A program made the position numbers and the translations under genes. The notes below the pieces were generated by a model. The model made no database searches. It worked only from the letters and a program-made list of their open reading frames with translations, and was not told the origin of the DNA. From NCBI GenBank assembly GCA_028532985.1, contig JANCIK010000011.1, forward strand, positions 1,860,001 to 1,924,000: a stretch of 64,000 nt of DNA. The letters are read 5' to 3'. This document shows positions 1 to 43,108 of the stretch, piece by piece. The first letter of the stretch is position 1, and every line of letters begins with the position of its first letter. The stretch is from Stropharia rugosoannulata (Eukaryota; Basidiomycota; Agaricomycetes; Agaricales; Strophariaceae).

Positions 1-78
1 TAGCTGTGGAGGTAAAAATGAAAGACAAGATCAACAGTGCAGAGATGGTTGATTGATAAGGTCACGTGTATTCATTCC

Positions 79-716
79 TCAGGCCACATGATACCAGTGG
101 CTTATATAATTTACATGTGCCTTACTAAATCTAGCATCTGCTACCCTACCTAATTCATTCCATACTAAGTTGATCTGGGCCTGTGCATAAGCCTGGAAAC
201 CTAGTGGGTGAGCATTAAATTGGCTGGCGGCGTCATTCGATGGGTTTTGAATGGTGGTCACTGCATCTGCCCACACATTCTGCCGGTGTTTCCACATATT
301 TGCCATATGGACATAGAACCGGACTGTCCAGTCCATTTCATGCTGACAGAGAACAACCTCTTCCTCCCATCGCATCTTCTGTGCTCTTGCTCGTAGCCAA
401 TGAATTTGATAAACTACAATTGTATTGATCACAGCTTGATGAGTATCAATCAAACTTACAATCATTGATTCTCTTGCGATTGAGATTTCCTTCAACCGGT
501 GGATTTCCAACCGGCGGCTCCATATTATGTTCCATTCTCCATATCCAAGACATTCAAGAACTGCTACCCCCTCTTGCATTTGGTTCAGTTATTGATGCAC
601 TAGTATTTGTATCAGCTTTTGACATGATGGGGAATTGTTGGTCAATGGCAGCCCTATCATTGTCATGTCTTGTGAGGCGTAGCATGGATAATTGATTCTC
701 ATTGTATTTCTGCCGG
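79..716 (-). pseudogene. KDZ transposase, C-terminal part
   Basis: This is the C-terminal, helical part of a KDZ (Kyakuja-Dileera-Zisupton) transposase whose body lies at 1929-5020. Removing the LTR at 717-1928, with one copy of the 4-bp CCGG repeat, joins the two parts in frame (…AISTH|RQKYNENQL…). The translation carries the family-like stretch LRARAQKMRWEEEV, followed by HPLGFQAYAQAQINLVWNEL, and ends in a stop at about 79. A frame change near 560-580 separates the junction-proximal residues from the long open frame, so it is not functional as it stands. The region after the catalytic core in this family is a coiled, Arg/Trp-rich tail of unknown function. Identity rests on recall of the family. 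Confidence 0.75.
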
Positions 717-1928
717 TGACAGGGCTGCTTTTTGGCTACGGGTGTAAACAGTCAGAAGTTCCATTGGTGGGATAGCTGCGCACGGGAAAACACCGAGGGA
801 CTAGAGTGGAGCCTGACTCGTAGTCTATAGCTATCAGCGCGCTTTATGACTATGAGCGCCTGCGCGCACCATATTGCGAGAGGGATCGGTCAGCGAGCTG
901 CACAGCTTAAAGTGCATAGTCTGGTCATCTGTGTGAGCAATCGAAGCGGCATAGAACGGTTAAGCACCAGCGAAGTGCGGTGTGAGTACAGCTGAGCGAG
1001 TACCAAAGGCGGTGTGAAGGGCTGTGCGCGCATCCCATGTGCGCGCATCGCAAAGGCAGAATTTGCCTAAGTCCACACATCATGTGACCGTGGCGGCGCG
1101 CATCAAAAGACGCGCAAAAGCCCGAGGGAGCAAACGATATGCGCGCAGCGAATGCCAAGGGACCAGGACATTAGAAGGGGAGCCCAGATGCGATGCGCGG
1201 ACCTTTGGCCGCGCGTTGCTAGTATTTACTTTACCTGATTATTAGTACACATGCGCGCATCGCATATAAACCTGTATTCTTGTCTATAGTAATCTAAGCA
1301 ATTGTCTACCCACTAGATCTGTGTGCTGGGTTCTGTCCCAGGCCGTCAGTGGGCTGTGTTTAGCTTTTGTTAGGGTTTTAACTGTGAAGTATTTGTGAAT
1401 CATAGGAGTTTTGGATAGCTTCTGGCCACCGGGTCATTTGGAGAGCTCAGTGAGGAGTCAGTACAACCGTGTACGGAAACTCGCACTGTAGTGTTTAGAC
1501 TGTGAGACTGCACCGCCGGGTGAAAGACTTTGGAGAGTCTTGGATTGTTGGACTTTGGAGAGTCCGCGCATCGCACGAGGTCACCGGACCCGGAAGTGCG
1601 CGCAGCGAAGCCGTTCGCTAAAAACAACTTATTTCATTTATCATTTTGCCTAGCGCACGCCACTAGCAACCAGGCTCTATCCGAGATTTACTAGAATTAA
1701 ACCCCTCCTTACAAACGAACTTGCAGGCACTACTTGCTATTACAAAGACTAGAGGACACGAGGTGCGCGCATCGCACGCCCAGAACGGGAACCAGAGCAG
1801 AGCATAGATTATACTAGCCGTTTAGTTGAGGGCGTTCGCTCGATCTAAGGGATAGGATCTCGCTCCGCTGGGTGTGTGTGTGTGTTGTGTTTCGCGATTT
1901 TGAGTCTAGCCACGCAGTAGACCTCTCA
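717..1928 (+). mobile_element. Solo LTR, family 1 subfamily A (1.2 kb)
   Basis: The element starts TGACAGGG and ends CCTCTCA, and is flanked by the 4-bp direct repeat CCGG (713-716 and 1929-1932). It interrupts the KDZ transposase. A copy with the same ends lies inverted at 55739-56956, also with a 4-bp duplication (CCGA); diverged copies lie at 35428-36743 and 19582-20547. A TATA-like TATAAA at about 1265 may be the LTR promoter. No internal retroelement region is present, so LTR-LTR recombination is the simplest origin. It contains many copies of a GCGCGCATCGCA-like motif, for example near 1028, 1045, 1250, 1565 and 1763. Confidence 0.85.
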
Positions 1929-4900
1929 CCGGTGTGTACTGATTGCCTGTGCCAAGACGACCACTCGATCCTGAGCTCTGGTGTGATGTGCACCATCTGT
2001 CCTCCTGACGTCAAATGCATATAGCCAAGATTTCTGAATAATTTCTCCATGAATTGATTCTAATAAATCATCAGCATGAGCTTTCCTAATCTTCAGCTCT
2101 GTTTTTTGCAATCAGCAGAGCATAGATTTATCCTGGGCTGATGCACCGGCGGCTGTCATGAGCTCTTCAGTGATTTCTGAAGGGAAGGCCATCAGCTGCC
2201 TTTCTGGGTCAGCATAACTGACTTCTTCATTAGCCACCTCTGCTTCTTCATCTGTTTGTGCACCATCCAAGATGGGAACATCATGTTCATCATTGAAAGA
2301 ATTCAAAATATCAATGCCCATGATGTCAACTGCACTGCGAGCAAATTTGTCGAGCTGCTTGCAAAGTGTGTGCCGGCAGCATACCAGATCCTGACGCTGC
2401 ACCACTGTGGGATCTTGAGGCATATGGCGGACGTGGGACCACAATTCATTTCTAAATAATGAATAAATTGGTTGGTAATAGTGATTGATACTACTCACTG
2501 CAATTGCTCAGCTTGAATACCCTGTGAGAGCCATATAGCTCGACCACCGGTCTCTCTGTTTTGAATTTCATTCTCTGATAGCTGCACCTCAATTTCTCGC
2601 ATGGTTGCAGCCTTCTGAACAGCCAGTCAATAAATGTCCATTGCTTCTGGCTCCTCATCTTGCCGGCGTTCAGGAGCCTCAATCTGTTCCAGCCATTCTG
2701 GCAGTTTATCCGCCGGCATACTTGCAGTAATATTGTTATAGTACACAATGGCATCAATTTCTTGATTCACGGCTTGAATATATTTCTTGATGATTGTAGA
2801 TGGCATATTGACAGTCTTCTTCCAATTTGAATCGCCCATGTGATCATCAAGCACTTCAGCCCTATGGCCAGCGGTCGCAGTCTGAACACTGCAAGATGTC
2901 TTGTTCAGCAGGCTCCACAGGGTTTCCAGGATTTCTCCGTCTACCATGCCAACACCAGGGATATAGGTCGATGCCCATCTAAATAGACATTCTGTCTTGT
3001 GGCCATGTACATGCCAGAGACCGACTGCACGTATGCATCGAAGCCTTTGTGGCCAAGTGAGACCCTTCATTAGTCGAAATTGCCTAGTCATATTCTTGTA
3101 GAACTGACACATAATGTCATAAATGAACATGACAGTGTCAATGCCGCTGGTGTTGGTATGCTTGAGTGCTTCAGAAATACTGTAGTCCATGCACATTTGA
3201 TGTTCGCCCAATTCAAAGTCAACAAGACTGCCTGGACAGAAGCAGCCATGTCTTGCACATGCCTGTAGCCTGTACACCAATCCCTCTGACCCAGCGGCCA
3301 GAAACAATCTTTTCACTGTCCAGCTGGGCACGATGAGAATGGCAAGTCGGCGGCTCCTTGAATTTCCTGGAATATTTTTTGGCATCTTTCAAATGCTCCT
3401 GGTAAGGACTGGCGGCTGTCATGAATGCCTGGCCGGCTGTCAGATCAATATCATCATGGGCATTCTTTTGATTCAAATGGTCAGCCTTGAAGTTCCCATC
3501 AGCACAGTACTTGCGAATAAAAAGGAACTTCTTGTCATTCTCTTTCCAGTTGTCAGGGAGGTTGATTTCTGGTTGAGGACAAGCAGGGCAAAATAGAGCC
3601 AGTATATCGCCGTACATCAATGGTGTTGTTTTAATCCCTCCAGCGGCATCACCGGCGGTGTCTTCGGGGGCACCATCTTCACTGTCTGATTCAGACTGTT
3701 CTGTAACTGGTGGAGGCATAATATCCTCATTTGGTATTTCATTATTAGCAAGAATGCACACTTTGGGGATAGCTGGTGGGTCAGGGTTTGGACACCATAG
3801 TCCATGAGCTCGGCCATGCATGGTCCACATCTTCATGTTCTGAAACTGTCTACTTAGCCAGCGGAGTTCATGGTATCAATCCAACACTGCTTGTGAGAAG
3901 GCTGGGCAGGTCAACCAGCGGAGTTTTGTGTAGTACTGATATGCAGATGTCTTGCATTCCAGGTTTGACAGCCTGAAGTCTCGAAGAACAGCAAATGTGA
4001 AGACAGTCTTGACCACATTGAAGGAGGTTGGGAATAGTGCCAGCTGCATGTATTGGTTATCTTCTGGCGGCTGATTGTTGCAGTGACATTTGACAGCCGG
4101 CAGGTGATGGATCCCATTCACCTCGACAATTGTAACAAATGGATTACCATGGGTATCATGTTGAGCTGGCCTCAGTAAGACTCAAGGGTAAGTAATATCA
4201 ATATCAAAGACAATTGTGTCTTCATCAATGTATTCATCAGCAGCTTCCTCAGCTTCAGGTTGCAGACCAGCATTGTAAGCACGGCAGATATTGCCTTCAT
4301 GTTCATCTCCATACAGCGCCTCTTGCATTTCTTGTATATCATTGTAGTCAACCATTGTATTAGGACATCTATTTCCCTGATGTCCAAGATGAAGCTTTAC
4401 ACCGACTTGCCATAGCACCGCCGGTGTGAAAGCACTACTATCCCAACAAAGAATACAATGAAATGGCATGAAATCATGACTCTGCCGGCAACATGTGGTG
4501 CATAAGAGTCGTCCTCCAAAGCACGCTTTACACTTCCATTTGGCAGCAGGTGCATTGCTGGCATTGCATGTATCAATCCCTCTAGCAGGTGCATGGGATG
4601 CCATTACAATCTTCAAGTGAGTATCCCTTCTGATAAGCCATTCTCTAAGAAAATCATTTTGCAACTGCACGATTTAATATATGCAGTGTGCAATTCATGT
4701 GGGTGATATAACATACCTTGCCTCTATATACTGGTAGATCCAAGTTTTGTAGGTTTTTGATAACCTGATCCTCAGTTATATCTCCAGCATAGTCAAGACA
4801 GTCAGGTACTTCCTGTGGTTCAAAGCCTAGTGGAACATCTGGAATAGCAGGAATAGCAAGAATAGTTTGTGCTACATTCTCAGCGACAGGTTCCCCACCA

Positions 4901-5020
4901 TGTTTGTGCTTCTTTGTAATGACCTTTCCTCTATGGTCCTGCTCTTCTACTGGATGCCACCAGCTTGATTGGGAACATTGTGCTGGGTTATACGGACACG
5001 GCGCATTGGGAGTAGACAGT
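1929..5020 (-). pseudogene. KDZ-family DNA transposase with CxC2 zinc domain (broken)
   Basis: This is the body of a KDZ transposase, a cut-and-paste DDE enzyme common in mushrooms. The N-terminal exon (about 4717-5005) ends DLPVYRGK. A 52-nt GT-AG intron (4665-4716) follows, then a CxC2-type cysteine cluster (WKCKACFGGRLLCTTCC, then HCILCW, about 4440-4560). Next come FCPACPQPEINLP (about 3550-3600), CARHGCF near 3250, the core motif YDIMCQF (about 3102-3125), HGHKTECLFRW, and VDGEILETLW, which supplies the likely catalytic Glu. A second intron is at 2452-2498. Breaks are a TGA at 4182-4184, a TGA at 3876-3878 (family expects Arg, so CGA to TGA), a frameshift near 3255-3275, a TGA near 2625, and the LTR insertion. 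Domain order and motifs are convincing; exact ends are not. Confidence 0.85.
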
Positions 5021-5164
5021 TGTGTGTGTATTTAGTGTTCGACCTTATATTAAGAAACCAATGGCACATGTGTTCTGCCTCATGTTATTATCAATAAATG
5101 TATCTATTTTAATCTAGTTATAAGCAGGAATGCATCAGTCTATTTTTTCATCCCTTTCCCCATA

Positions 5165-6176
5165 ATGCCTACACCAGAAGAAACCCCGGCCTCTACACAG
5201 ATATGGACAGCAAAGGAGTTGGAGATTTTGAGGGATCATGTCAAGGGATATTGTGCACAGGTCAAAGAGCGGAAGGGCACTTTCCTCGCTGAAAAGGTCA
5301 TCAAAATGATCAAAGCATTGTGGGGATCATGATACAAAAAAAGTAATCCCAATTTCGATGAAAGGATGCAAGAGGAATGGAAGAAGAAAAAAAGGGTATG
5401 CCCCAAGCAATGTATGCAATGTAACACCCTAATGCTGTAACAGTCCATAAGCGAGATTAACTATATATGGAGTGTACTAATTATAGTATGTGATATCTAA
5501 TCTACTGCTGATGGTCAGTCCAATCCTATGTAATCTAACAAAAAGTTTATTCTCAAGAATTGTAAGGGTAAAAAGAAAGAATCAGTTTCAGAACATGCTT
5601 CAGATGTGGAGGACCAGTCAGACAAGGTGGAAGAATCAAGAGACCAGCAGTTAACATCTGCATCAGGATCAGATAACAACCGCCAGTCTGACAGCAAAGA
5701 TGAAGGACCCAGCAGAAGGAATACATTCTGTGCCCAGCAAGGCAGACCCCCTGGACTGTGAGATGTATCAAATACAAGGGATAGAAATCAGTCAAGGGTA
5801 AGAATTGTCGAACCTGATGCAAAGGAAGGAGGAACAAAGCAGACAAAACACAAGACTGTTTCAAGAGGACATTCACACAGCAAGAATGGAGATGGAGAAA
5901 GTAACCGCCGGTCTTCCAGACGAATTGCTTCAAGACCGGTGGCCTCGGATATCGAGAATGTGGTTGAAGTCAAGAGGCACTGAGGATGAACAAAATTCAG
6001 GGAACATGTTGACAATGCTCACAGCATGCGCCATTCAGCTCACCTGGCCTCGCGCCAACCAGCCTCGACTGACCACAACAGTGGGCACAGAAAATCTTCA
6101 ACCAATAGACAATCAGGGAAACAATGAAACTGCCGGTCACACCACTGGTCTCACATTTCATCTTATATTCAAATGA
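5165..6176 (+). pseudogene. Broken basic/acidic gene divergent from KDZ
   Basis: From an ATG at 5165 the frame reads MPTPEETPASTQIWTAKELE and continues as a Lys-rich helical segment (FLAEKVIKMIKALWG). It is interrupted by a TGA at about 5330 and resumes as NPNFDERMQEEWKKKK to about 5396, where a GT-type donor (gtatgc) could begin an intron. The 5436-5540 repeat sits in that intron. A second open stretch (about 5542-5760) is Ser/Glu/Lys-rich, and a third (to about 6160) is Ser/Arg/His-rich. The N-terminal segment resembles unnamed basidiomycete proteins often seen beside KDZ transposases, from recall only. A DNA-binding or accessory role is guesswork. It starts about 150 bp from the KDZ 5' end, so the two may share a promoter region. 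Confidence 0.4.
5436..5540. repeat. About 105-bp LTR-like fragment shared with the Copia LTR at 62.8-63.0 kb
   Basis: Bases 5445-5538 match 62926-63019 almost base for base (for example CATAAGCGAGATTAAC and GATATCTAATCTACTG). The segment here begins TGTAAC and ends TAATCTAACA, so it has TG…CA ends. The 63-kb copy is the first part of a Copia LTR. No convincing target duplication flanks it. Confidence 0.55.
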
Positions 6177-6179
6177 TCA

Positions 6180-6492
6180 ATCAGTCGAAAATATACATAA
6201 ATTAACTAGCTATAGATACATTGTGATACATTTAAATTAACTTCTCACCTGACATGATGCCGCCGGCCACATATTGCAACTTCACATATTGAGGACTTCA
6301 CACATTTTGCATCAATGTATATTTATACCTGACTTCACTGAGACTAATGTTTACAAGCAAATGACAAAAAATTAATTTCACTTTGACTTGTGAAGTCAAA
6401 GTTTCAAGATATACTGATACATTAAATGCCCTTGATCTAACTTCAAGGGGTGGTATATACAGACAAAAAAAAATCAAGATGCAAGGAGGATG
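6180..6492. other. AT-rich spacer, no gene seen
   Basis: This spacer lies between the convergent ends of the 5.2-6.2 kb gene and the 6.5-8.7 kb gene. It contains one CCGCCGG motif near 6261 and the inverted pair TTTGACTT/AAGTCAAA near 6385-6405 that could form a hairpin. No open frame of note. Confidence 0.4.
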
Positions 6493-8748
6493 TCACCGGC
6501 GGCCTTTGGTGTGAGTGTGCTTCGCTGGTGGCTCCTTGTTCGCCTCACCCTCATTCCCTCGCTTGGCACCAGCGGTCATCCCTGTCGCCTTGCCCTTTCC
6601 TGCACCCTTCCCCCTCTGACTCCTTGTCTTCTTCACAGGTGCCTCAACCTGTGACACCGAGTCCAGCTCATCCTCCTCACTGGCACCCTCCTCATTCTCT
6701 CCCCCCTCAGCCTTCCCATCCCCCTGCTCGGTGGGTGACTCTGCAGCCACGACCATAGGCGTGTCGCCGTCACTGCCCACGTTCTCCTCGTCTTCGTCTT
6801 CGTTGTGTTCTGGGAACTCAGGAGGTGGTGCGCACACCTCGATGAGATCTTGGGCGGAGGGGGCAGGTGGGCGAGAAGGCACAGGCAAAGGGGAATGGGC
6901 AGGGGAGGGAGACGGGGCAGGTGGACAGTGCGGGACTGGTGAAGGCGATGGAGGAGGGGGAGTGGGGGCTGGCGGTCCAGTCGACACCAGCAGTGGCATC
7001 TTCCGAGGCACTTGGATGTTGAATGGTGTCATCAACCTTGACTTCGGCCATGATGTCTGTGCAACAACCTGCTCCAGCAGGCTCCTCAGAGCCCGCTGTC
7101 CCTCCATCAACTCCATCAGGGCTCGCCCATGCCCTTCAACCACCACCTTCAACTCCTGGACCTTGTCTGTCAGGTCCTGCGCATCAGCCCGTATTGTCAT
7201 CAGTTCCTCGACTGCCTCCATTGTCTTCTCGAGCGTCTTCGAGAGCTCCTGGTTCTGGTGCTGGAGTGCCCGAACGTCTGTTGTCGCATCGTCAAATCCA
7301 CGCTCGACGTTGCAGGTGATTACCCGTGTTTGCTCCGACGTCATCATGATGACGTCCCCGACGTTCTCGGCATCCGCAAAGACTTTCTTGCAGTCCTCGT
7401 CAACATAGCGACTCAGGTGGTGGTCCCACGGGGCGACTTTGTCGCCCAGTGTCATGGTGCCCGGCATCTTGAGGCACGGCTTCTTGTACATGTATTGACA
7501 CATACTACAAGCCCTGACAGGGTTCTCCCACATTTCCTTCTCATGCTATGGGGACTCGACGTAGCAGGGTGTGCTGTGATTGATGCAAGACCAACAAGGC
7601 ATCTTGGTCTTGTAGCAATTGGCGGGCATCCGCCTCTTAGACGCAGTAGATCACGCACGTACGGTGCCTTCCCCTTGCCCTTGGCCACCGGTTTCCCATC
7701 GGACTCGCTGTCATCATCCACCTGCCTCGATTTCCTCAACGCCACTGTCCTCACCTCTGGCTCGCTCTGGGTTGCCTTGCCCTTGCCCTTCTTCATGGGA
7801 TGCTGCACCTCTTCCTCCTCTTCCTCGTCCTCCTCAAATTCACTTTCATTGTCCGTGTCCAAGACAAATTCACGTGATTTTGTCGCCGCTGGTTGTCTAG
7901 ACGGGCCAGCCACCGGCGGCCTGGTGGCTGGCCCCTTTGCATTCTTTGGCTTCGGCTTGATGGTGGCCTCTGTCTCGCTGGCCTTGACACCAGCAGTCGC
8001 CTTCGCCTTCTTCTGCTTCGGCATCTTCTGCAAAGGCACCGCCACGACAACCTCAACAATGTCTTTGAACGCTGCTGGGTGTGCGCCTGTGGGAGACAGT
8101 GTCTTCTCCCAGGTTGTGATTTTCGATGACTTTACCTTGGCGGCAACAGGGGCAGGTGGTGCGGTAGGGGGAGAGGCAGGTGCAGGGGGGGGGGGTGGGG
8201 AGGCCTTCTTCGCCTCTGGTGCCTTGGCCGCCGGTGCAGCCTTGACCGGCAGTGCAGGCTTCACCCTGACAGTTGCTGGTTGATTGACTAAGACTTTGTC
8301 AGAAATGAACAAAAGGCTATAATATTTATTACTCACCAATAATAGGCATGCTGCCTATATCCACCTCCACCTTCCCCTGCTCCTGCCTCCATAGGACATA
8401 TAGCCCCGTCTCCACCATCTCCTTGAACACGTCCCAGTGCACGTTTTCTGCGTCTCGTCCATCGGAACTCGCGTCCTTGGGCAACAGCTTGCACACATAA
8501 TTGTAGAGCGTGAGCCCTACAGTCCGCCCAGCAGCCGACTGCTTGCAGACTTGAAGTTCAACCTATCGTCAATGAATGGTCAGTAAACTAAACATAGAAA
8601 ATGTAACAAAAAAACTCACCAAGGACTTCCAAAGTCTGGTCCTCTCCTTCAAAAACAGTTGGCTCCCTCCTTCCCAGATTCGCACACAGTTGTGATGGAA
8701 CGCAATGATTGTGTCTCAGATTTCAAGGTTGCTGTGAGACAAAGCCAT
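6493..8748 (-). pseudogene. Cys-cluster, Pro/acidic-rich coiled-coil protein, three exons, broken
   Basis: ATG at 8748 opens MALSHSNLEI, then TGA (8716-8718, probably CGA), then DTIIAFHHNCVRIWEGGSQ. Introns are 8563-8619 and 8276-8336 (gtgagt donors). Exon 2 encodes VELQVCKQSAAGRTVGLTLY and WDVFKEMVETGLYVLWRQEQ. Exon 3 has an Ala/Pro/Lys-rich stretch, a nine-residue Glu block and basic KGKGKA repeats. A frame change near 7640 is followed by a cysteine cluster (CYKTKMPCWSC, TPCYVE, CSMCQYMYKKPC), with an in-frame TAG at about 7543. Then comes a coiled coil (about 6990-7330) and a Pro- then Glu-rich tail. The Cys spacing suggests metal or nucleic-acid binding. I do not recognise the family. It lies between KDZ and TET/JBP genes and has CCGCCGG motifs within codons. 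Confidence 0.6.
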
Positions 8749-9787
8749 GAAGAAAAGTAAAGGGAATTATTGAAGAGAAGAGGACGCAGGGTGTGGGAGA
8801 GAAGAGAAATGTTCTGTTGATGGCTGTGTGCTATTATAAAGTTCAACCATCTACAAATAATAGTCAACATTCCCACGCAAAGCAATCAACAGACTTCAGC
8901 TTTTCAAAACCAAAGGCAACATCTGGACATCGCCGGTCTCAGTAAAACCGCCGGTGCATATTAATAATGTGCATTTTTATGAAAATTTTGTCACTGGTGT
9001 GGGCTAGCATAGCATAATAATTAGGTATATACCTTTAGCCAAAACACATCGCTGGTCCCAGTAAAACCGGCGGTGCATAATATTGTTATATGATAATCTG
9101 GGCAAGTATGGCCTCAATTGTAATGGTCTATAATATTGTTATTATGCTGGCTAATAGTCATATACTAAACTCACAACAGTGCCATTATGCATAGTAGTAT
9201 ATTCATTTCATGAGCATGAACATTGATCACCTGAGACCGGCGATGTATATGACAGACTGCTGGTTTCCAATTTCCAATGATCATATGTGCAAAATGAGCC
9301 CATATACCATTGTAATATACCAGACTCACAGATGTATAGGAGTATATTCATTTCATGAGCATGACCATTCATTATTCCAGACCGGCGATTCTCAGCATGC
9401 ACTGCCGGTTTCCATACAATCATTTGTTCAAAATCATCCATGAACCACGGTAATATACTAGACTCACACTAGTCCCGTGCAAAATAGTAGTATATTGAAT
9501 TTACATAGCGCCGGTCAATGATCAGAATCGCCGGTCTATCATAGCCCATCTGCCATTTGACACCACTGCTCGACATAGAGAACCGCCGGTTGATCTTGCC
9601 CTGACAACCATCACCATTTGTCGACAATGGCCCTGTAAAACACAGTAATATACTAGAAAGCTATTAGTCCCGTGTGACATGGTAGTATACTAGTTCTGCA
9701 ATGGCTCAAAATAACTCCGTGATCTACAGTATAATAATAGTTCACTGTAGCACTATAGATTACGGTACCCAGGCACTGTCCTATGTG
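8749..9787. repeat. Tandem-repeat spacer ending in a foldback-element terminus
   Basis: Two related blocks near 8930 and 9055 share CATCG(C/T)… followed by AGTAAAACCG and GTGCATA. From about 9195 to 9660 a roughly 150-bp unit recurs (TATTCATTTCATGAGCATGA, and TAGTCCCGTG with TAGTATA). The segment to 9787 ends GGCACTGTCCTATGTG, the terminus of the foldback element at 13473-16835. At least seven CCGCCGG/CGCCGGT-type motifs occur. It abuts the first recognisable TET/JBP codons, so that gene's N-terminus may have been displaced. Confidence 0.55.
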
Positions 9788-9789
9788 AG

Positions 9790-10539
9790 AGGCTGCTATC
9801 CCACTCTCAACATTGGAGTCATCCATGGGAATGGCACACAGCAGCCTGTCAACGTCAACAACCACAACAACTACACACCACTTTTGGACAGGCTATTGGG
9901 CCACACAGACATTCAACGAGTGGCCTTGTTTGCAAGCAGTAAGTGCTTCTTTTTGACATGCATTGGCTAGGCTGATTATTTGTTTCTTCCAATCCTCCAG
10001 AGTCCCTTGCTGCCTTTGCCCCTAAGCTATATGGGTACTACCAAACCTATCTCTCTTGTCGGTTTGATCAGATACCAGATCTTCATTGCATTTTCCCTGA
10101 ACACATCAGCATCTTCCCCAGCGCTGCATTCAACTTTGGGCCAAATGTTTGTACCTTCAAGCACCGTGATCTGTTGAACTGCCCTTTTGGTTTATGTGCC
10201 ATCCAGGCACTGGGCAACTTCAATCCCACCCTCAGTGGCCACATGGTGCTGTGGGAGCCCAGGCTCATTGTTGAATTCCTGGCTGGTGCCCTTATTCTCA
10301 TCCCATCAGCCACCATTACACACTCCAACATACCAGTGCAACCTGGCAGCATTCACTCATCTTTCACGCAATATGCAAGCAGGGGGTTGTTTCACTATGT
10401 TGATTACGGTTTCAAGCTAGAGAAAGCCCTAAAAAGATATGATCCTGAGCTGTATGAAATTGTGATGAAGGAGCAGACGGAAAAGTGGAGGGTTGGCTTG
10501 GACTTGATAGAGACTGTCCAAGTTCCTGGTAGTTTATAG
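9790..10539 (+). CDS. TET/JBP-family 2-oxoglutarate/Fe(II) dioxygenase, N-terminally truncated
   Basis: TET/JBP enzymes oxidise 5-methylcytosine or thymine in DNA using Fe(II), O2 and 2-oxoglutarate. Two exons are seen: RGCYPTLNIGVIHGNGTQQP to RVALFAS, a 62-nt GT-AG intron (9939-10000), then an uninterrupted 180-codon exon to TAA-type stop 10537-10539. Iron ligands are visible: FKHRDLLN (His 10162, Asp 10168) and THSNIPV (His 10321). SFTQY follows, then GLFHYVDYGF, the usual C-terminal block. Eleven residues after the distal His, where relatives have Arg (2-oxoglutarate contact), this copy has His (CAC; CGC to CAC is one CpG transition). The next open in-frame ATG upstream (9701) lies in foldback-derived sequence, so the true start is uncertain. 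Association of fungal TET/JBP genes with KDZ transposons is published. Confidence 0.8.
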
Positions 10540-10819
10540 CCGCATGGTTTTCTTTTTTTTCTCTTCTTGCTATGCATTCTTACCTGGAACACTTTGGTCT
10601 TTAGCGAGTATGTAATAGACTGTGCAGTAGAATTTCATTTATGTTGGTTGGTCCACATAAAAATTAAAGCCACAATGAAGCAGCAGTGAACAACAAATAC
10701 ACCTTGCCTGACAGTTAGCATTGAAACATCTGCATGAGCATAAAAAGAAAGCTTGCTCACCAGTTCCACCCTATCCAATACTTTCAATCCTTTTACTCAG
10801 CTTCAACCTGCTTTCAACT

Positions 10820-12445
10820 CACTATGCCAAAAGCTAGCTGCTTCCATCCCTCTCTTAAGAGCACTATCAAAGCAGGCAATAGCTGCTTTGATGTTTGCGA
10901 CAACATGGAGGGTAAATACGAAGCCATGCAAGGACTAGACACAGCACGAGTCCCTAGCCCAAAACCTCCCCAAGGGATAGCTCAACATCATCAGGTCATA
11001 GTGAATGCTTCCAAGGGTGTAACAAACAAAACCTATAAAGAGTATCTACGGTATGTGGCATGAATGACCCTAATCATATGCTATTTAACTAATCAAATAC
11101 AAGTATTGAAGAGCAAATGGGTGTTTTTCTTGTTAAATGGAACTTGGTCAAAACACCTGGAGACTTTTTCTGTAAGAAGCCTCCAGTAGATTCCCCTGAC
11201 CTCATTATAGTATACATTATGCATGAGTACATGTTTCAAGCAACCCTCAAAGCATGTATTTTATTAACATAAAGCTATGTGCGGTTCAACACATTAGATG
11301 TGATGCCACATATCATGACGGCACCATAAAGAGCGAAGGGACCTCTATAGGAACATATTCTTATGCCCAGAAGATTAGAGCAGCAATGACTACTTAGCTT
11401 TTTGGTCAAAAATATCAACTTGGAAATGTGGACTGGTTCCAGGGTGCAGATGCAGATGTCACTTGTGGAAACCCTTCAGTATCATCTGATGTCTCCCAAT
11501 TCATGCTGGGTCTTTGCAACTGCAAGAACAGGGCAGGCAAAAAATCTACAAGTGCTCAAGCCATTACATTGGTGTGTCTCAGCTTGCAGCAACAATATCA
11601 GTATTTAATTTAATGTTGTCACTCCATTAATTCTGCAGAATATTTTATGCCAGCTATATGACTTTAATCATTGTAGTGAGAACTGGGATTTATGTGACTA
11701 TAAGCCAGGCTCTCATAAAAAATCTATTCATGATTGGGGTGGTCCTATGCTTTGCAGAGAGCTCCAAGCCATCTACCTATTGTCATTCCTTTGTCTTCTT
11801 CATTCAGACAAGGTATTAAACATACACTGGGAACATCTACAGTTCACCATCGACAAAGAAGATCGGCATGGAATCCTTACACTTGCTCTGCCTTTTAGAA
11901 AAACACATCCAGATGGAGGTAAGCAGTCTTAATGCCATCTCAGCAACATGATTACCATTCTCTAACTTGTTGGATTCTTTTCTAATTGTAGGGATCAAAC
12001 CCTTTGTTCTTCATATGTTTCCTAATGATGATGTACATCTTTGTGCTGTCACAGCACTAGCAGATTGGGTAGAAGCATCCCAGCTTATATCAGGGTATAT
12101 TTTTTCGAAAAATGGGTTCCAATGATCACCTATCTCCAGACAATATCCCAATGGCATGTTATCTTTGTCATTATGTTATATTTTGTACTCATTAACAATT
12201 TTGAATAGACTTCAGAACAATTTTTGGAATATTTTAGAAACAATTTGCTGGATATTGGCATAGATCAGTATCCTTATGGAACACACTCCTTTTGACACGG
12301 AGGCATGCAGTATCTAGCTGGTAATGAGCATCGCTGCCCTCTGTGCCAAATTTGCAAGTGGGGTGGGTGGAGTGAAGAATTCACCAGCAATTCTATTCTG
12401 AAATACATCATTTCATGGAACAATGATCCAACAGAAGAATGAGAG
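10820..12445 (+). pseudogene. Tyrosine recombinase (fungal integrase-like) relic
   Basis: MPKASCFHPSL starts a chain of frames (about 10824-12445) matching a basidiomycete tyrosine-recombinase family. The blocks are SIGTYSYAQKIRAAMT, GNPSVSSDVSQFMLGL, NWDLCDYKPG, DWGGPMLCRELQAIYLLSFL, LPFRKTHPDG with an intron (about 11918-11991) and then GIKPFVLHMFP, YPYGTHSF*HGGMQYLAG, and LKYIISWNNDPTE, which carries the likely Tyr nucleophile. The first catalytic Arg (LLR.D in relatives) is LLHSD here (CAT, 11801-11803). The HxxR box reads HSF-stop-HGG (TGA 12293-12295, CAC 12296-12298), where relatives have HSFRRGG. Each change is one CpG transition. Further stops lie near 11395, 12123 and 12441. Same strand as the TET/JBP gene, about 280 bp downstream. 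Confidence 0.75.
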
Positions 12446-12651
12446 GACTTTTTTAATCCTAGAAAAAGCCTATAATTAAGTGTCCAGCTTGCAGAAGATC
12501 TTGCCCATGTTCTTAGAACTAGTTCTTATATTTATGTTTCACTCTCTTTTGTAATTTAATTTTGTAGCTCATGGAAATTTGAAATTTATTACAAGAAAAA
12601 GCAACATGAATTAGGAAACAAGACAACAAAAAAATTACACAGGGCTGTAAC

Positions 12652-13099
12652 CTACATAATACCATCCATATCCTTATCCTCAGAGTCCTGCTTGCTATCA
12701 GAGTAGCTTGCTTTTTTGCAGTTCATAAGGCGGTATTGCTTGGCAATATCAGCAGGGTTGGATTTAACATGCCACTTCCCCTGCTTGTGGTAGCCAAATG
12801 TCTTTTTGAAGTCGTTACTGTATTCTTGCTTAGCTAGTGTTGTGAGCCAGTTATCTTCTTCTCTACAGATTGCTTCAAGCCTGGCCTGAATCTCTTTGAA
12901 ATTCATTTTTTTGCCATTGATGTTAAATGTTGCCCAGAAGTCCTCTACCTGGGTAGTTCGGCGCATAGCATAGACAAGCTTCTATATACAAAAAATGGCA
13001 GGAGTAAGCAAGTCTGAGAGAACCAATGAATACAAAATAAATACAAACTTTAGCATTGAAATATTTGCCCTTGACAGAGCTTCAATACCCAACCTTCCA
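12652..13099 (-). pseudogene. Unrecognised gene fragment, 3' end, cut by a TIR element
   Basis: Two exons on the minus strand encode …GLGIEAL-type residues ending SRANISMLK. An intron (donor gtttgt near 13051, acceptor tatatag near 12982) follows, then KLVYAMRRTTQVEDFWATFN, a Lys/Asn-rich helical region and an acidic tail (SDSKQDSEDKDMDG) to a stop at 12652. The coding sequence is lost exactly where the CATCAGG-ended element begins at 13100. I do not recognise the protein. Confidence 0.4.
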
Positions 13100-14049
13100 C
13101 ATCAGGAAAATGACTTTTTCCCCCAGGGGTTTTGTATCTCCCTGGCACTGCCTTAGAGATCGTAAGGCAGCTAGGGCATACAAAGCAGCCAGGGCCCTTA
13201 GGTGCACTCAGGGCAAGGTCCCTCTGAAAACAACCAGGTACAACTTTCCCAAGGCAATCCAGGGCAGCTCAAGGCATCCTAGGATCCACCAGATGTACCT
13301 TGTATCATTCAAAGGTGTTTAGATATAATGCCATTTAATAAGTACTATTCAAACTTCTTATACAAAACAAGTTATATATTGACTCTAACTAGACTAGATA
13401 ATACAGTATTCATGTATGTAGATACATATAATACAACACAGTGATAGGGTGCTTATGAAGATGGTGACTCTGCACATAGGACAGTGGCTGGGTACCATAG
13501 TATACAGGACTTCAGTAAACTATTAGTATACCGTAGATCACAGGCCCATTTTCAACAAATGGCAACCTAGTATAATACCGTGATCTATGGGGCTAATGGC
13601 AACCTATCTTAGTACTGTGTTTCACAGGGCCATTTTCAACAAATGGCATCCACATATATAGGTGATGTAAATCCGGCAGAAAAATGACTTACGGCGGCAT
13701 TATATATATTTTTCTGAAGCAAATCCGGCGGAATTAGTGTGCAGAGCGAGATAATGGATTGTAGTTGATGACTTTTATTATTTCCGCCGGTTTTTGGATA
13801 TTTCCGCCGGATAGATGGTACTATATAAATCTACTACTTTGTTGCCGCCAATTTGTGCATTTAAAATTATTTTTATGGGTCAGTAGAATTCAAATACTTG
13901 ACTACACTTTTTGTTTCATAAAAAAGTAGATATTGTATAGTTTGCATTTTAAAAAATTTGATCGCGAAGTCCGGCAGCTAAAATTTCTATGGTACATTTA
14001 TTTGATGTACCAGGGTGCAGGCCTATAGAGGTACCAAATTTCCGGTGGC

Positions 14050-15125
14050 CTCTGGGCATAAGAAATGATTTTTACAAGTAGAAAAGATTGAAACCCAGAT
14101 TTATCAAGGATAAAGATTGTTCATTTAATTGTGAGGTTTGTATGCCTTTGTACATGCTTTATAATGCACCTGGGCACCACCAGGCCGCCGGCCTATAGAG
14201 ACAACAAGTCTCTTGTGGCCTCTGGGTTAAGAAATAATTTTTATGATTATAAAAGATTAAAAGCCAGATTTATGAATGATAAAGATTGTTTAATTAATTG
14301 TGAGGTCTGGCAGCTTTGATACATGTCTTGCAGTGCACCTGGCCACCGGATTTTATTCCCAACAAGTCCTCAAGAGCCTCTGGACACAACAAATGATTTT
14401 TACAATCAGAAATGATTGAAACCCAGATTTATGAAGGATGAATATTGTTTAATTAACTCTAAGGTCCGGCGGCTTTTTTACACGCCTTATAGTGCACCTG
14501 CTCAATACCTCGTTGCCAACCTATAAATACAACAAGTTTCCGGCGGGTTCTGGGCCCAAAAAATGATTTTTACAAGTAGAAAAGATTGAAATCTGGATTT
14601 ATGAAAGATAAATATTGTTTACTTATCTGTGATGGCTTGCTGCTTTTTTACACACATTATAGTGCATTTGGGCACTACTTGGTTGCGTACTTGTATGGTC
14701 AACAGATTTCCGGTGGCCTATGAGTGTAAAAAGAATTTTACAATTAAAGAAGATTGAAAGCCGGATTTAAGAAGGATAACAATTGTTTAATTAATCATGA
14801 GGTACAGCGTCCTTTCTAGACATCTTGTAGTGCACCTGGCCGCCGTATTGTATGGCCAACAGGTTTCTGGCGGCTTTTGGGCATAAGGAATTGTTTTTAT
14901 AGTTAGAAAAGATTAAAACTCGGATTTAAATTAAGTAAAGATTGTTTAATTGATTGTGAGGTCCAGCGGATTTTTTACATGTCTTGTAGTGCACCTGGCT
15001 GCTGTCTTGTGTGGCCAACAAATTTCCAGTGGGTTTTGAGCACAAAAATTGATTTTTAAAAGTAGAAAAGATTGAAACCTGGATTTACAAAGAATAAAGA
15101 TTGTTTAATTAATTATCAGGTCCCT
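14050..15125 (+). repeat. About 165-bp tandem modules inside the foldback element
   Basis: The phrase GATTTTTACAAGTAGAAAAGATTGAAA with variants recurs at about 14067, 14236, 14395, 14563, 14733, 14893 and 15051, a spacing of roughly 160-170 bp. Each unit also has TTGTTTAATTAATTGTGAGG, then GTGCACCTGG, then TTTCCGGTGG. The first three modules belong to the inverted arm and recur reversed at 15840-16290; the other four lie in the loop only. CCGGCGG motifs sit at fixed places in the unit. Confidence 0.75.
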
Positions 15126-15515
15126 CAACCTCAAGACATGCCTTGTAGTGCAACTGGCTGCTGCCTCAGGTTGCCAGACCTTACCAATAGCATGTTTTCG
15201 GAACCAGCTGAGCATTGACTCAGTGGCCATCAGAAGATGTCTAATCTATGTATATGTCATTCATCATTTCTGCACAGTGTTTAAGGAAGAACTTATGATG
15301 GTACTGAACTCTTGCAGAGCACTGATAAGAATAGTGCAATTCCAACAGGTGTGCAAGATACATTGATGAATCAGAACCAAAGGCTATGGTTGTGCAAGAA
15401 GTGCTGGACAAGCCAGCATATGTTGTAAGAATGTGGAAATAAATGAGAAGGGGTCAAGTGGTAATGCATTAGTGGGATAGTGTTTGACAGAGCCATCTTT
15501 TTGTGCAGAAGAATG

Positions 15516-15824
15516 TTACTTTGCATTAAATGCATCTGACTTGTGCTTCAGGAACATGACAGTATGTGGGTGAGTGCAGTCTACAATACAAGTCATCCAG
15601 TAGTGGTGTCCCTCAGGCTTAGGCACTGAGAGCAGACTATGCAAGTCAGAATGCACCAATTCAAGTGGTTTAGTGGATTTGCAAGTTAAGCTCAGAAATG
15701 TACCAGATGTCATCTTGTGAGCCAAGCATGCTTTGCAAATTAGATCTGCATGCTCATTCAACATTACAAGTGTGCCAGTGACTAGACATTTGGAGTGCAG
15801 CTTTGTGAAATTCTTGAATAGCAC
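15516..15824 (-). pseudogene. Copia pre-integrase/integrase fragment inside the foldback loop
   Basis: The 102-residue open frame shows CKACLAHKMTSGTF (pre-integrase Cys pair), then PLELVHSDLHSLL (first integrase Asp) and YWMTCIVDCTHPHTVMFLKH. It ends abruptly after HKSDAFNAK. This is the Ty1/copia zinc-binding plus integrase-core start. It is a captured or nested fragment, not a full element. Bases 15148-15310 upstream match a reversed stretch at 38770-38935, so the loop sequence is shared between foldback copies. Confidence 0.65.
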
Positions 15825-18808
15825 TATGTCAAAAGCCGCCGGACCTTAGAGTTAATTAAACAATATTCATCCTTCATAAATCTGGGTTTCAATCATTTCT
15901 GATTGTAAAAATCATTTGTTGTGTCCAGAGGCTCTTGAGGACTTGTTGGGAATAAAATCCGGTGGCCAGGTGCACTGCAAGACATGTATCAAAGCTGCCA
16001 GACCTCACAATTAATTAAACAATCTTTATCATTCATAAATCTGGCTTTTAATCTTTTATAATCATAAAAATTATTTCTTAACCCAGAGGCCACAAGAGAC
16101 TTGTTGTCTCTATAGGCCGGCGGCCTGGTGGTGCCCAGGTGCATTATAAAGCATGTACAAAGGCATACAAACCTCACAATTAAATGAACAATCTTTATCC
16201 TTGATAAATCTGGGTTTCAATCTTTTCTACTTGTAAAAATCATTTCTTATGCCCAGAGGCCACCGGAAATTTGGTACCTCTATAGGCCTGCACCCTGGTA
16301 CATCAAATAAATGTACCATAGAAATTTTAGCTGCCGGACTTCGCGATCAAATTTTTTAAAATGCAAACTATACAATATCTACTTTTTTATGAAACAAAAA
16401 GTGTAGTCAAGTATTTGAATTCTACTGACCCATAAAAATAATTTTAAATGCACAAATTGGCGGCAACAAAGTAGTAGATTTATATAGTACCATCTATCCG
16501 GCGGAAATATCCAAAAACCGGCGGAAATAATAAAAGTCATCAACTACAATCCATTATCTCGCTCTGCACACTAATTCCGCCGGATTTGCTTCAGAAAAAT
16601 ATATATAATGCCGCCGTAAGTCATTTTTCTGCCGGATTTACATCACCTATATATGTGGATGCCATTTGTTGAAAATGGCCCTGTGAAACACAGTACTAAG
16701 ATAGGTTGCCATTAGCCCCATAGATCACGGTATTATACTAGGTTGCCATTTGTTGAAAATGGGCCTGTGATCTACGGTATACTAATAGTTTACTGAAGTC
16801 CTGTATACTATGGTACCCAGCCACTGTCCTATGTGAATTCTGATCAGAATAACATGTTCAAGAGCTTGTTAGAAAGCTTGAATTGATGTGAAGATGCTCC
16901 AAAAAACTATGAGGCAATTGAAGAAGTTGTTCTCGACTTAGGAACAAATTAGTCCAAGACAAGGAGATGGAGGAGGACATAGCTACTCACAGGCATCCAG
17001 AAACCCCACAATTTGTGTAACAGACATGTTTAAACTCCACATCAAGGATGCATAAACATGCCAAGTTTCAAAAATTGTTGTCCAAAACTGAAGGAAGGAG
17101 ATGACATTCAAGTCTGCAACAGCAGTCATATGGCCATGAGGGAGGTTGGATATTGAGGCTGTATCGGATGCCAAAACCTAGATAATTAGTTTTTTTTCTT
17201 ATCTGTAGTAGAAGACTCCAAAAAAAATCAGGCAAAAATATGAACAGGAACCCAAGATATGAAGTACTTTACCTAGAGAGGGGAGGGGGAGAAGGAGCAC
17301 ATGGCGGTTTTTTGGATTCCAAGTGACAATATAAAGTGTTTGAGTGCTCGTTAGAAAGCCACAATCAAGGTGAGTTCATCATAGAAAGAATTAAGGAGAT
17401 TGGAGACAAACCTATGTCAGAATCAATGAAATACCTCAAAACTCCAAAGTTTCACAACAACTTGGGATGGAGGACGCTTCGTCGCCCCCAAAATCAAGCC
17501 GTTGCAGGGGCAGGTACCTCATGTAGTTGAGTGAGTTTTCCCAAAGTTTGAAACACTCAGGATATCCAGAAGCGCACCTATGAATTAAATTGTCCCATCC
17601 AGGGGAAGGAGGACACACAGATTGAGATCGTCCTCAAGCTTGTCAAATCGCACAATTAATGGTACTGTTTGATACTGTTTGATAGGTAGTAATGAGACAA
17701 ACCAGGAAATGCAAAAATCATACTGTTTGGCCAGGTATTGACAGATATTCTTGGAGACAGTTTGCAGAGGACTAAAATGCTCTTGAAGGTTCAAAAAGAA
17801 TTAAGAGTAAATGTGGACAGGATCTGGAGTTATTGCACTTTCAAGCAGAGGCAGTCCAGGGGCAGGAGGAGCACATCATGGTTGGACGGCTTCCAGACAT
17901 TGGAATCAAACGTTCATAGACTCAATAGAATCCCCTAATTTTCAGGAGCTCATATGTGAAAAGAATGTCGCAATAAACCCAACACATACGTTTAAAATCA
18001 ATAAAACATCGGAAATTGGGGGAAGGAGGGTAACATAGCCGGTTCTCGCCTTCCAGGCAACCAAATCCATTGGTATTGAGCTCGTTAGAATTGCATAATT
18101 GCCCACATTCTGAATCTGGGGCAACCGAAGGCTCGGAAGAAACAGACAACAAAGAAATTGGTGAACTGTTTCAATAAGTGTCTCCAGATGGTGCTAAGTT
18201 TATGCGTTGAATACTGGTTTGTTATGGATGTTCTTGGATGCGTTAAAAACATATAAATGAGCTGAAGACACACCAAAAAACCGTTTGATAATGCAGTTCA
18301 CTATTCTGACGATATAAAGAAATCTCTATAGGAATGAGCCTATTCCATCCACATTTGCCCTCCTGACATAAATCCAAGCTCTAGACCAGATCTAACAAGG
18401 TAGCAGCCGCCAAGGACTGCCTGAGTAGAGTAGGACCTAAGCATACAAGAAAAGTTGAGGAAGGGGAGTGGGAAATATGAGAGTGAAGTGCAAGTGAACT
18501 TAGAGGACTTAGTTGACTTAGTGCAATATTGGATAGGCTTACATAATCAAATTATCAGACTATTTGAAGTACTTGAATTGGCATGTCACCCACAGAATGT
18601 GTATAATTTTATTGTTTGAAAATCAACAATGAAGGTGGGAAAAGTCATTCAAGCTGGCTTTATTTCCCCATGTTGCATGGAAATTCAAAGCATGCCAGGG
18701 CATGCCAGGACATCTCATGACATCCTAAAGTAGTTAAAGGCCCCATCAATTGATGATCTGATCGCACTTTCCTAAAGTGCTCTCCGATCAAAAGTCTTTT
18801 TCGTGATG

Positions 18809-19577
18809 TAGAGTGTTTGAGGGCTTGTTAGAAAGCTATAGGCAAGGTGAGTTTAGCATAGAAGGAATTAAAAACATTGGAGACAAACCAGTGTAGTCAA
18901 GTAGGTTCTCCAAAAATTTGAAGCCCTAAAACAGTCTAGAAGTGCACCTATGAATTAATCTGTCCCACCTAGGGGAAGGAGGACACCCAGATTGAGATCA
19001 CCCTTAAACTCACCAAATTGTGCAATGATTGATACTGTTGGATAGGTATTAATAAAACAAACTAGGAAATGCAAAAATCATACTGTTTGGCCAGGTATTA
19101 ACAGATATATGAGGGAAAATGTGTCCTAGGGGGACTTGACACCTATAAGATGGTACTTGGCAAGTACAGGATGGATTGCCATGATCTTGGAGACAGTTGG
19201 CAGAGGACTAAGATGGTCTTGAAGGTGCAAAAGAAATTGGGAGTGAAGGTAGACAGGATCTGGAGTTATGGCACTTTCAAGCAGAGGCAGTCCAGAGGCA
19301 GGAGGAGCACATTACAGTTGAATGGCTTCCAGGCATCAAAATCAAATGTTCAAGGACTCAATAGAATCCCCTAATGCCTAGGAGCTCATATGTGAAATAA
19401 ATGACACAATAAACCCAACCCATACCTTTAAAATTAATAAAACATTGGAAAATAGGGAAAGGAGAGAGACATAGCTGGTTCTGGCATTCCAGACATCCAA
19501 AAGCTTCAGTCTTGGGCTTGTTAGAATTACTTAATTGTCCACATTACAAATCTGGGGCAACCAAAGGCTTGGAATAA
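18809..19577. repeat. Older partial copy of the CATCA-ended element
   Basis: This stretch is a diverged direct copy of 17334-18135. GTGTTTGAGGGCTTGTTAGAAAGC, the TGGCCAGGTATT block and the AAGCAGAGGCAGTCCAG block all occur in the same order. CpGs of the other copy are TpG or CpA here, so it looks older. Copy 1 therefore sits next to, or inside, a decayed relative. It is cut on the right by the LTR at 19582. Confidence 0.6.
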
Positions 19578-19581
19578 ATGG

Positions 19582-20547
19582 TGACAGGCCTGTGTTTACA
19601 CCAAGGCTGTAAGTGGCCACAGCAGGTGGTTTGTGCTGAAGAGCAGGGATACAGCAGAGCAGTGACCAGCCTGGTCAGCCATCTCAGTGCTCAGCATGTG
19701 TATTACAAATCTATCACACATGTGCTCAGCAGGCAGTTGTGTGGGGTTCAGTGGACTGTACGGGCTATAAGTACACAGTTGAAGTACCTGGAATAGCTGT
19801 CAGCAGAGCACATAACAGTTACTGTCTTCTCAGCGGAGGACAAGAGTACAGCTGAGCGGAAGTATCAAAGGCAATGAGCAGGACTGTGTGTAGACAATGC
19901 CTCACAAGGCTCAGCAGAACACATGATAAAGGCAAAATTTGCCTAAGTCCACTTGTCAGGTGACTGTGGCACGTGTGCTGGAGCATGTGATGCCTGAGGG
20001 AATGAACAATACACATAGCAAGGACTCTGCTGGGGAACTTTGGCAGTGGAGTGGAGTTTAATGGAGTCTCTCAGCAGAGGCTGGCAATATAACAGAAACA
20101 GGTTGTGCTCAGTGGAACAGTCATCAAGATGCCCAGTGGAGGCACACATGCTCAGCAGACCTTTGGTTTGGCATTGCTAGTATTTATTTTCCACCTAAAT
20201 TAGTACAGAGTTTATATATATAAACTTGTAATTATAATTACGGAAATCAAGCAATTGTCTACCCACTAGATCTGTGTGCTGGGCTCTGTCCCAGGCTGTC
20301 AGTGGGCTGTGTTTAGCTTTTGTTAGGGTCTTAACTGTGAAGTGTCTTATGAATTATAGAAGTTTTGGATAGCTTCAGGCTACTGGGTCATTTGGAGAGC
20401 TCAGCAGGAAGTCAGTGCAACTATGTACGAAAACTTGCACTGTAGTGTTTGTGATTTGAGACTGCACCACTGGGTGAACAAGGTTCTGGATAGCCTCAGC
20501 AGAATAGGACTTTGAATAGTCCTAGCAGAACAACTTTGAATAGTCAG
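19582..20547 (+). mobile_element. LTR family 1, decayed 3'-truncated copy
   Basis: It starts TGACAGGCCTGTGTTTACACC exactly like the LTR at 35428 and follows it to about 20547 (TAGTCAG), where homology stops. Nearly all CpGs of that copy are TpG/CpA here, for example AGCGGA to AGCAGA. TATA-like TATATATAAAC lies near 20215. No 3' end or target duplication is left. Confidence 0.7.
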
Positions 20548-42319: not shown

Positions 42320-43108
42320 TATAATCTTTTATAAACATAAAAATCATTTATTAGCCCAGATGCCGCCAGAGACTTGTTACCTCTATAGGCCGGTGGACTG
42401 GTGGTGCCCAGGTGCATTATAAAGTGTCTACAGAGGCATACAAACCTCACAATTAAATGAACAATCTTTATCCTTGATAAATCCAGGTTTCAATCTTTTC
42501 TACTTGTAAAAATCATTTCTTATGCCCAGAGGCTACCAGAAACTTGGTACTTCTATAGGCCTGCACCCTGGTGCATCAAATAAATGTGCCATAGGAATTT
42601 TAGCTACCGGACTTCACAATCAAATTTTTTAAAATGAAAACCATACAATATCTACTTTTTTACGAAACAAAAAGTGTAGTCAAGTATTTGAATTCTACTG
42701 ACCCATAAAAATAATTTTAAATGCACAAATCGGCGGCAACAAAGTACTAAATTTATACTATATCATCTATCCAGCGGAAATATTCAAAAACCAGTGGAAA
42801 TATTAAAAGTCATCAACTGCAATCCATTATCTCGCTCTGCACACTAATTCTGCTGGATTTGCTTCAAAAAAATATGTATAATGCCACTGTAAGTCACTTT
42901 TCCGCCGGATTTACATCACCTATATATGCAGATGCCATTTGTTGAAAATGGCCCTGTGAAACACGGTACTAAGATAGGTCACCATTAGCTCCATGGATCA
43001 CAGTATTATACTAGGTCACCATTTGTTGAAAATAGCTCCGTGATCTATGGTATACTGATGGTTTACTGAAGTCCCATATACTATGATACCCAGCCACTGT
43101 CCTATGTG
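42320..43108. mobile_element. Single foldback arm
   Basis: Matches the right arm 16045-16835 and ends at the same CAGCCACTGTCCTATGTG. Of the CCGCCGG motifs in the reference arm only one (near 42901) is intact; the others read CCAGCGG, CCAGTGG or CTGCTGG, i.e. CpG decay. Confidence 0.8.

Follow-up and report, generated by a model that had tools for sequence, protein, structure and literature searches.

A CGG-pair word dispersed through Kyakuja-type KDZ transposons of the mushroom Stropharia rugosoannulata, a probable binding site for an element-encoded protein

We analysed a 64,000-nucleotide stretch of the Stropharia rugosoannulata genome (hereafter, the window; contig JANCIK010000011.1, here C11, positions 1,860,001 to 1,924,000), in which the short word CCGCCGG/CCGGCGG (hereafter, the motif) is concentrated in two related transposons, a decayed Kyakuja-type KDZ element and a foldback element. 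Fresh copies of the KDZ element elsewhere in the genome carry the motif at high density, and related subfamilies and families carry variants of it. The motif is probably a family-specific binding site for a protein encoded by the transposon itself, a form of self-addressing like that of the VANC proteins of plant VANDAL transposons, and its role would most likely be to counter silencing.

The window contains 27 exact motif sites on both strands, against a mean of 1.05 and a maximum of 5 in 100 dinucleotide shuffles. Twenty-five of them fall inside the two elements: 14 in the KDZ element (1-9787), where a first-order Markov model predicts 0.31, and 11 in the foldback element (13473-16835; 0.03 expected). 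No site lies between the elements (9788-13472; 0.01 expected), and two exact matches, at 42902 and 56148, lie in 16836-64000 (0.73 expected), giving 2 sites against 0.74 expected for the 50.8 kb outside both elements. The sites in the KDZ element are exact matches at 2710-2716, 4418-4424, 5905-5911, 6260-6266, 8228-8234, 8948-8954 and 9583-9589 on the plus strand, at 511-517, 2146-2152, 3652-3658, 6496-6502, 7913-7919 and 9067-9073 on the minus strand, and at 1513 inside an inserted piece resembling a long terminal repeat (LTR).

A dispersed motif had been proposed here in a reading made from the letters of the window (hereafter, the sequence-only reading). It is real, and the positions given were correct to within ~4 bases, although the sites at 1513, 42902 and 56148 had been missed. 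The reported absence from 19-34 kb also holds, as no site occurs between 16584 and 42901. The setting described as AT-rich applies to the foldback element (37-41% GC) but not to 1-10 kb (42-57% GC per kb), and the carriers, then taken for unrelated sequences, turned out to be two related transposons, the ends of the foldback matching a KDZ subfamily. A genome-wide word count, which that reading had suggested and which we ran for CCGCCGG alone, gave 4871 occurrences on both strands in 48 Mb versus 5060 for the reversed word. A genome-wide surplus is ruled out by this count, and the enrichment belongs to the related elements.

The KDZ element is ~14.3 kb long, and its PF18758 (KDZ transposase) stretch has 39 matches in the genome, ~20 of them at 92-94% identity; 13 others form a second set with 67-68% identity over ~530 bases. 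Four clean copies (A3, A6, A7 and A8; 14.2-14.3 kb) share 98.9-99.4% identity among themselves and 93% with the window copy (A0). The fresh copy A3 encodes a Tet_JBP protein (4.1e-15), a KDZ transposase (PF18758, 2.1e-44) with a CxC2 cysteine domain (PF18803), a 544-amino acid (aa) protein that matched no Pfam family at E 0.1, and, at the right end, a protein of 610 aa. Motif counts far exceed expectation in A3 (62 versus 0.56), A7 (56 versus 1.14), A2 (66 versus 1.19) and A1 (57 versus 1.24), the last two being diverged relatives, and the window copy, with its inserts removed, retains 18 sites versus 0.34 expected. Overall, the motif is highly enriched in one transposable element family and rare elsewhere.

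The arrangement of the two triplets is specific, with CCG-N1-CGG counted 62 times in A3 and other everted spacers 0-9 times. Sites in the fresh copies occur on both strands, and 44 of the 62 in A3 lie in pieces of open reading frames (ORFs), which cover 9621 of its 14279 bases (67%), with all three frames used; the sites neither favour nor avoid coding DNA. Synonymous-codon shuffling of the A3 ORFs left a mean of 6.3 and a maximum of 13 sites in 500 trials, and the observed count was also above a codon-order null. Codon usage, which the sequence-only reading had named as a possible refutation, is excluded as a cause by these trials. The sites per kb along A3 (3, 5, 6, 4, 5, 5, 6, 2, 3, 3, 6, 3, 5, 5 and 1) reveal no enrichment at the ends, ruling out a subterminal-only motif. 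Regular spacing of the nucleosome type was likewise rejected, the spacing being random in A3, A7, A1 and B1, with P 0.03 in A2.

The word differs between groups of elements, being ACCGGCGGY in family A, CCGGCGGA in A1 and TCGGNNNCCGA in family B. Outside the transposase part, the base before the motif is A in 36/44 sites of A3 and 4/40 of A1 (P 1e-11), and the base after it is A in 3/44 and 24/40, respectively (P 1e-7). In the transposase part, which A and A1 share, the motif flanks are mixed in both. At the DNA level, this part of A1 shares 90-91% identity with the window copy, but the outer parts on either side have diverged far, which points to modular exchange between subfamilies. The transposases of A and A1 are 99% identical over 379 aa and 93-97% identical in other long blocks (two blocks of 42-46 aa reach 83%), whereas the right-end proteins share 42% identity, and gene 2 and TET likewise diverge.

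Family B, comprising B1 and B2 (99% identical where compared), has one CCGCCGG or none. Its palindrome TCGGNNNCCGA is built on CGG-N3-CCG, found 39 times versus 2.5 expected, with other inverted spacers in B1 counted 1-19 times. A position weight matrix fitted to B gave 115 strand hits (~60 places), compared with 10 when the sequence was reversed and 18 when A3 was scanned. As in family A, coding DNA is included, with 32 of the 39 cores in ORF pieces and all frames used. Families B-III and B-IV (7 kb read from each) have an excess of CCGA, of CGG-N2-CCG (16 and 20 strand counts versus 6 and 2 reversed) and of CCG-N3-CCG, to which (GACACC)n-like coding repeats contribute, and we claim no family word for them. 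In C0, a relative at 72-73% identity, CCGCCGG is absent from the 16 kb read, and the KDZ part shows no enrichment of any CGG word. In copy A9, CCGGCAG occurs 31 times versus 6 for CCGGTGG. We did not retain CCGGCAG as a separate subfamily word, since a CpG observed/expected ratio of 0.52 and arginine-to-cysteine changes in the zinc-cluster-like gene described below make one-sided CpG decay of CCGGCGG at least as likely as a variant word.

Paired words are specific to these elements across the genome. Two copies of ACCGGCGG no more than 38 bp apart occur at 31 places versus 3 for the reversed pattern, and paired CCGGCGGA at 27 places versus 2 for the reversed control. In a comparison of coordinates by hand, 29 of the 31 and 26 of the 27 places were in, or within ~9 kb of, KDZ, zinc-cluster-like gene or foldback matches, those without such neighbours being C11:278200, C12:2179727 and C1:1893428. 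The pair pattern of B is weaker (6 places versus 2 in the control), with 4 of the 6 in the B zinc-cluster-like genes.

The foldback element (13473-16835, no strand assigned), delimited by analysis of its arms and repeats and by BLAST, is non-autonomous and has perfect inverted arms of 1005 nt, at 13473-14477 on the plus strand and 15831-16835 on the minus strand. It contains tandem units of ~160-170 bp. Over its terminal 209 bp it shares 94% identity with the end of A1 and ~76% with family A, and it is best seen as a non-autonomous A1-type element. The six sites of its left half have T before the motif in 4/6 and A after it in 3/6, as in A1, though the numbers are small. At 14009-15163, the units (~159-170 bp) making up the arms contain decayed motif copies and resemble the tandem target regions of VANC.

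To compare sites between subfamilies we used well-aligned columns, a filter that itself disfavours gaps. A3 and A2 are 71% identical. Of the 34 A3 sites that could be judged against A2, 22 were kept (28 of the 62 fell outside the columns), 10 were substituted and 2 gapped; in the opposite direction, 38 of 66 A2 sites were judged, with 22 kept, 15 substituted and 1 gapped. Control GC-only 7-mers with two CpGs were kept in 2/15 cases from A3 to A2 (P 0.0015 against the sites) and 2/29 in the opposite direction, and CpG retention from A3 to A2 was 56/72 inside motifs and 161/372 elsewhere (P 7e-8). The A3-A1 and A2-A1 pairs gave 16/32, 16/26, 16/29 and 16/29 sites kept, and 2/13, 2/9, 2/13 and 2/9 control words. 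In the six directions the ratio of substituted to gapped sites was 10:2, 15:1, 13:3, 9:1, 12:1 and 12:1, under the same gap-disfavouring filter. Sites thus tend to be retained, and the differences between subfamilies are mainly point changes. Spread by insertion, as in GC clusters, was rejected on this excess of substitutions. Of the two interpretations offered in the sequence-only reading, a proliferating micro-repeat is not supported, as sites present in one subfamily mostly differ by in-place substitution (10/12 for A3, 15/16 for A2), and a bound motif comparable to VANC targets is supported by the element-specific density, conservation, subfamily variants and a candidate reader protein in the same element.

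In the window copy, the 66 consensus sites are now 16 intact, 40 mutated and 10 gapped, and 48 of 51 motif-site changes are CpG transitions, a pattern that fits methylation of dead copies. Its motif CpGs are kept only slightly better than the others (64/112 versus 221/495).

The candidate reader is the right-end protein, which in all seven elements read (A3, A1, A2, A9, B1, B-III and B-IV) has six cysteines in a Cx2Cx6C...Cx2Cx6-7C cluster. A coiled-coil-like region lies behind the cluster. The A and B proteins share these cysteines and diverge in the remaining sequence. The cluster appears to resemble fungal Zn2Cys6 (Gal4-type) domains, which typically read paired CGG triplets, in its two Cx2Cx6-7C halves, in the coiled-coil-like region and, by association, in a CGG-pair target. 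It differs in that the order of its halves looks swapped and the loop between them is 18 residues in A types and 23-24 in B types; in PF00172 the basic half comes first and the loop is ~5-12 residues. The Pfam Zn_clus profile matches the B domain at E 0.0009 and 19.7 bits, below the 21-bit cut-off, with profile positions 2-16 aligned to the second half. Zn_clus is absent from the matches listed for four A-type proteins (for A3, the best 25 of 32) and from the A3 matches at E 0.1.

Structure comparison of predicted models with the PDB by Foldseek returned Zn2Cys6 proteins as 9 of 11 matches for the B model (including AlcR and LAC9, which we take to be such proteins) and 4 of 7 for the A model, to which 6gys_B, if it is Cep3 as we presume, would add a fifth. 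No homologue of the A3 protein was found at E 0.001 in the protein collection, where one search scored only candidates sharing most words, and a PDB sequence search gave a single irrelevant match (E 1.6). The zinc-cluster-like protein is the better reader candidate because the transposases of A and A1 are nearly identical in their long blocks and yet the motif flanks differ. The zinc gene and the motif are kept in A2, where a 30-aa remnant of TET survives. Further A2-like zinc loci, in which the zinc gene stays and TET is missing, are located at C1:2402073, C8:1159754, C12:1541845, C12:1657382 and C13:2045124. No TET match was found within 25 kb of any of the six A2-like loci, among which motif sites were counted in A2 and A9 only.

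The KDZ elements of this genome keep ~40-65 exact sites over ~14 kb, on both strands of coding and non-coding DNA; in the proposed mechanism, the right-end protein would bind them as a dimer and mark the entire element as self. By coating its own element through these sites, the protein would most probably keep it open, in a hypomethylated state that allows expression, and the TET/JBP dioxygenase encoded alongside would be a likely effector in the subfamilies, apparently most, that have it. Non-autonomous relatives such as the foldback would carry the word variant of their own autonomous partner. We infer the protein-motif binding, the dimerisation, the opposition to silencing and the recruitment of TET from these associations. 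More tentatively, these features may together form a self-address code of Kyakuja elements, in which each family has its own CGG-pair word repeated ~60 times, gene bodies included, a zinc protein with swapped halves brings TET to it, and word and reader diverge together.

Some observations weigh against this account. Over all motif bases, retention between A3 and A1 is barely better than that of the flanks (0.86 versus 0.83 and 0.88 versus 0.84). A fixed link to TET is also at odds with the remnant in A2 and with the A2-like loci that lack TET nearby. Possibly A2 draws in trans on the TET of family A, given how close the two words are; alternatively, TET may be an asset in its own right.

The alternative that survives best has the same motif and the same zinc protein serving transposition or transcription, by pairing or activating the element and not by opposing silencing. 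Its model is TNPA of maize En/Spm, which the element itself encodes and which binds DNA at many sites in the subterminal regions. We regard this as a real rival, albeit an unlikely one: binding is a step common to both accounts, the foldback, seemingly made of cis sequences only, retains motif sites, and A2 has the motif and the zinc gene without TET. However, the mushroom sites cover the whole element and not the subterminal regions, and those in the ORF pieces of A3 would be unneeded for synapsis or a promoter.

It is more doubtful that the reader is not the zinc-cluster-like protein of the element but its transposase, its gene 2 product, its TET protein or a zinc-cluster factor of the host. 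In favour of this, A and A1 differ in gene 2 and TET as well, and fungal hosts have many Zn2Cys6 factors. The near-identity of the long transposase blocks despite differing motif flanks speaks against the transposase, a single host factor would not account for different A and B words in one genome, and all six cysteines persist between A and B in an otherwise diverged protein. A host target, such as a site for the methylation or silencing machinery, is very improbable, for even though each motif has two CpGs, which CpG transitions have eroded in the old window copy, an active element should lose such sites and not keep and regain them, and the word is family-specific. Equally improbable, and largely refuted, is a micro-repeat that multiplied neutrally, or a side effect of composition, codon usage or CpG mutation: the word is short, GC-rich, present at many places and carried by the foldback tandem units, but its counts exceed the dinucleotide, synonymous and codon-order nulls, its subfamily differences are mostly substitutions in all six directions, its CpGs are better kept than others, and a second family has a different motif.

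The window copy of the KDZ element was delimited by BLAST of the window plus 10 kb leftward against nine other copies. It starts ~6.4 kb left of the window, and its right part (1-9787, plus strand) ends in ...CACTGTCCTATGTG at 9787 with a terminal inverted repeat (TIR) of ~392 bp (9395-9787, minus strand; A0 19395-19789 against 3984-3590, 99% identical in inverted orientation). The copy is decayed and cut by LTR-like inserts, among them one of ~1.2 kb at 718-1929 (no strand assigned; A0 10718-11929), which is repeated elsewhere, forms an unaligned gap between blocks of A3, A4, A6, A7 and A8, and is absent from clean copies. The decayed transposase gene with its CxC2 domain, interrupted by this insert, spans 450-5088 on the minus strand (approximate ends, mapped by hand from the copy alignment), with a PF18758 match at 2627-3385 on the minus strand (7e-33, Pfam search of the window). 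The zinc-cluster-like gene, also decayed, was placed at 6493-8339 on the minus strand by tblastn, ORFs and translation, with its coiled-coil-like region; it consists of ORFs 6493-7533 and 7452-8339, both minus, with one internal TAG, and its tblastn match (C11:1867069-1867650, minus; window 7069-7650) has 91% identity and includes the TAG. Pieces of TET survive left of the window at C11:1855835-1856536. Among named proteins of the collection, the closest transposases belong to Agaricales (Flammula alnicola, 52%; Psilocybe cubensis, 44%); an unnamed protein matches with 84% identity across 42% of the query.

The element ends are CACATAGG...CCTATGTG (CA..TG type). Among seven copies with examined flanks, exact 7-bp target duplications occur in A6, A8 and A2, 6/7 bases match in A7, and no 7-bp duplication was found in A3, A4 and A0. 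The 7 bases right of A3, CTTAATT, are the same as those left of A4 (both copies on contig C13), which lies ~50 kb away in opposite orientation. This is perhaps a trace of recombination between the copies; the two remaining flanks show no such match.

The closest functional parallel is in plants. According to the available passages of PMC5735166, VANC21 binds YAGTATTAY, which is enriched in VANDAL21, mainly in non-coding DNA, in one orientation and in tandem repeats, and passages of PMC10398659 describe VANC effects that spread across the element. The mushroom system is alike in outline, with a short, dense, family-specific motif, related families having other motifs, and a DNA transposon with extra protein genes. 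It is not a member of that system: its sites are as frequent in ORFs as outside them and occupy both strands, only the foldback shows tandem arrays, the sites change by substitution, and the transposase is KDZ and not of the MuDR type. The candidate reader is zinc-cluster-like, no search for VANC homology was made, and anti-silencing would follow by analogy.

With the TET-containing Kyakuja elements, as presented in parts of PMC12730594, our elements share the KDZ transposase, Tet_JBP, the CA..TG ends and, in the cleanest copies, the 7-bp target duplications reported there (section 3.2). They differ in having TIRs of ~390 bp; the two Laccaria families described there, Kyakuja-1/2_LB, have none, an absence that may not define the group. 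The main text of PMC12730594 contains none of the words CCGG, CpG and zinc, and none of the words CCGG, KDZ and Kyakuja appears in PMC8889193, passages of which report that oxidised cytosines in Laccaria and Coprinopsis are enriched in transposons. Mobile Cryptococcus KDZ elements have TIRs and 8-bp duplications in the passages concerned with them in PMC12810828, where no dispersed motif was found. Within the parts of the literature covered by our search, we found no report of a dispersed motif or a zinc-cluster gene in Kyakuja elements.

Sequence-specific anti-silencing by transposons is known from plant VANDALs, and the mushroom elements may be a second, independent case, in fungi. If so, this would explain how the TET enzyme of elements already known for TET dioxygenase genes could be aimed at the element itself. 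The natural pairs of reader and word in A, A1 and B would offer material for studying co-evolution, and protein-coding DNA would be seen yielding to a second, non-coding message.

Elsewhere in the window, a long open retroelement polyprotein (1719 aa; 49613-54772, plus strand) contains no motif site and has reverse transcriptase, integrase zinc-binding and chromodomain matches. A fragment of an RVT_2 family reverse transcriptase is located at 44250-45023 on the plus strand (3.8e-62).

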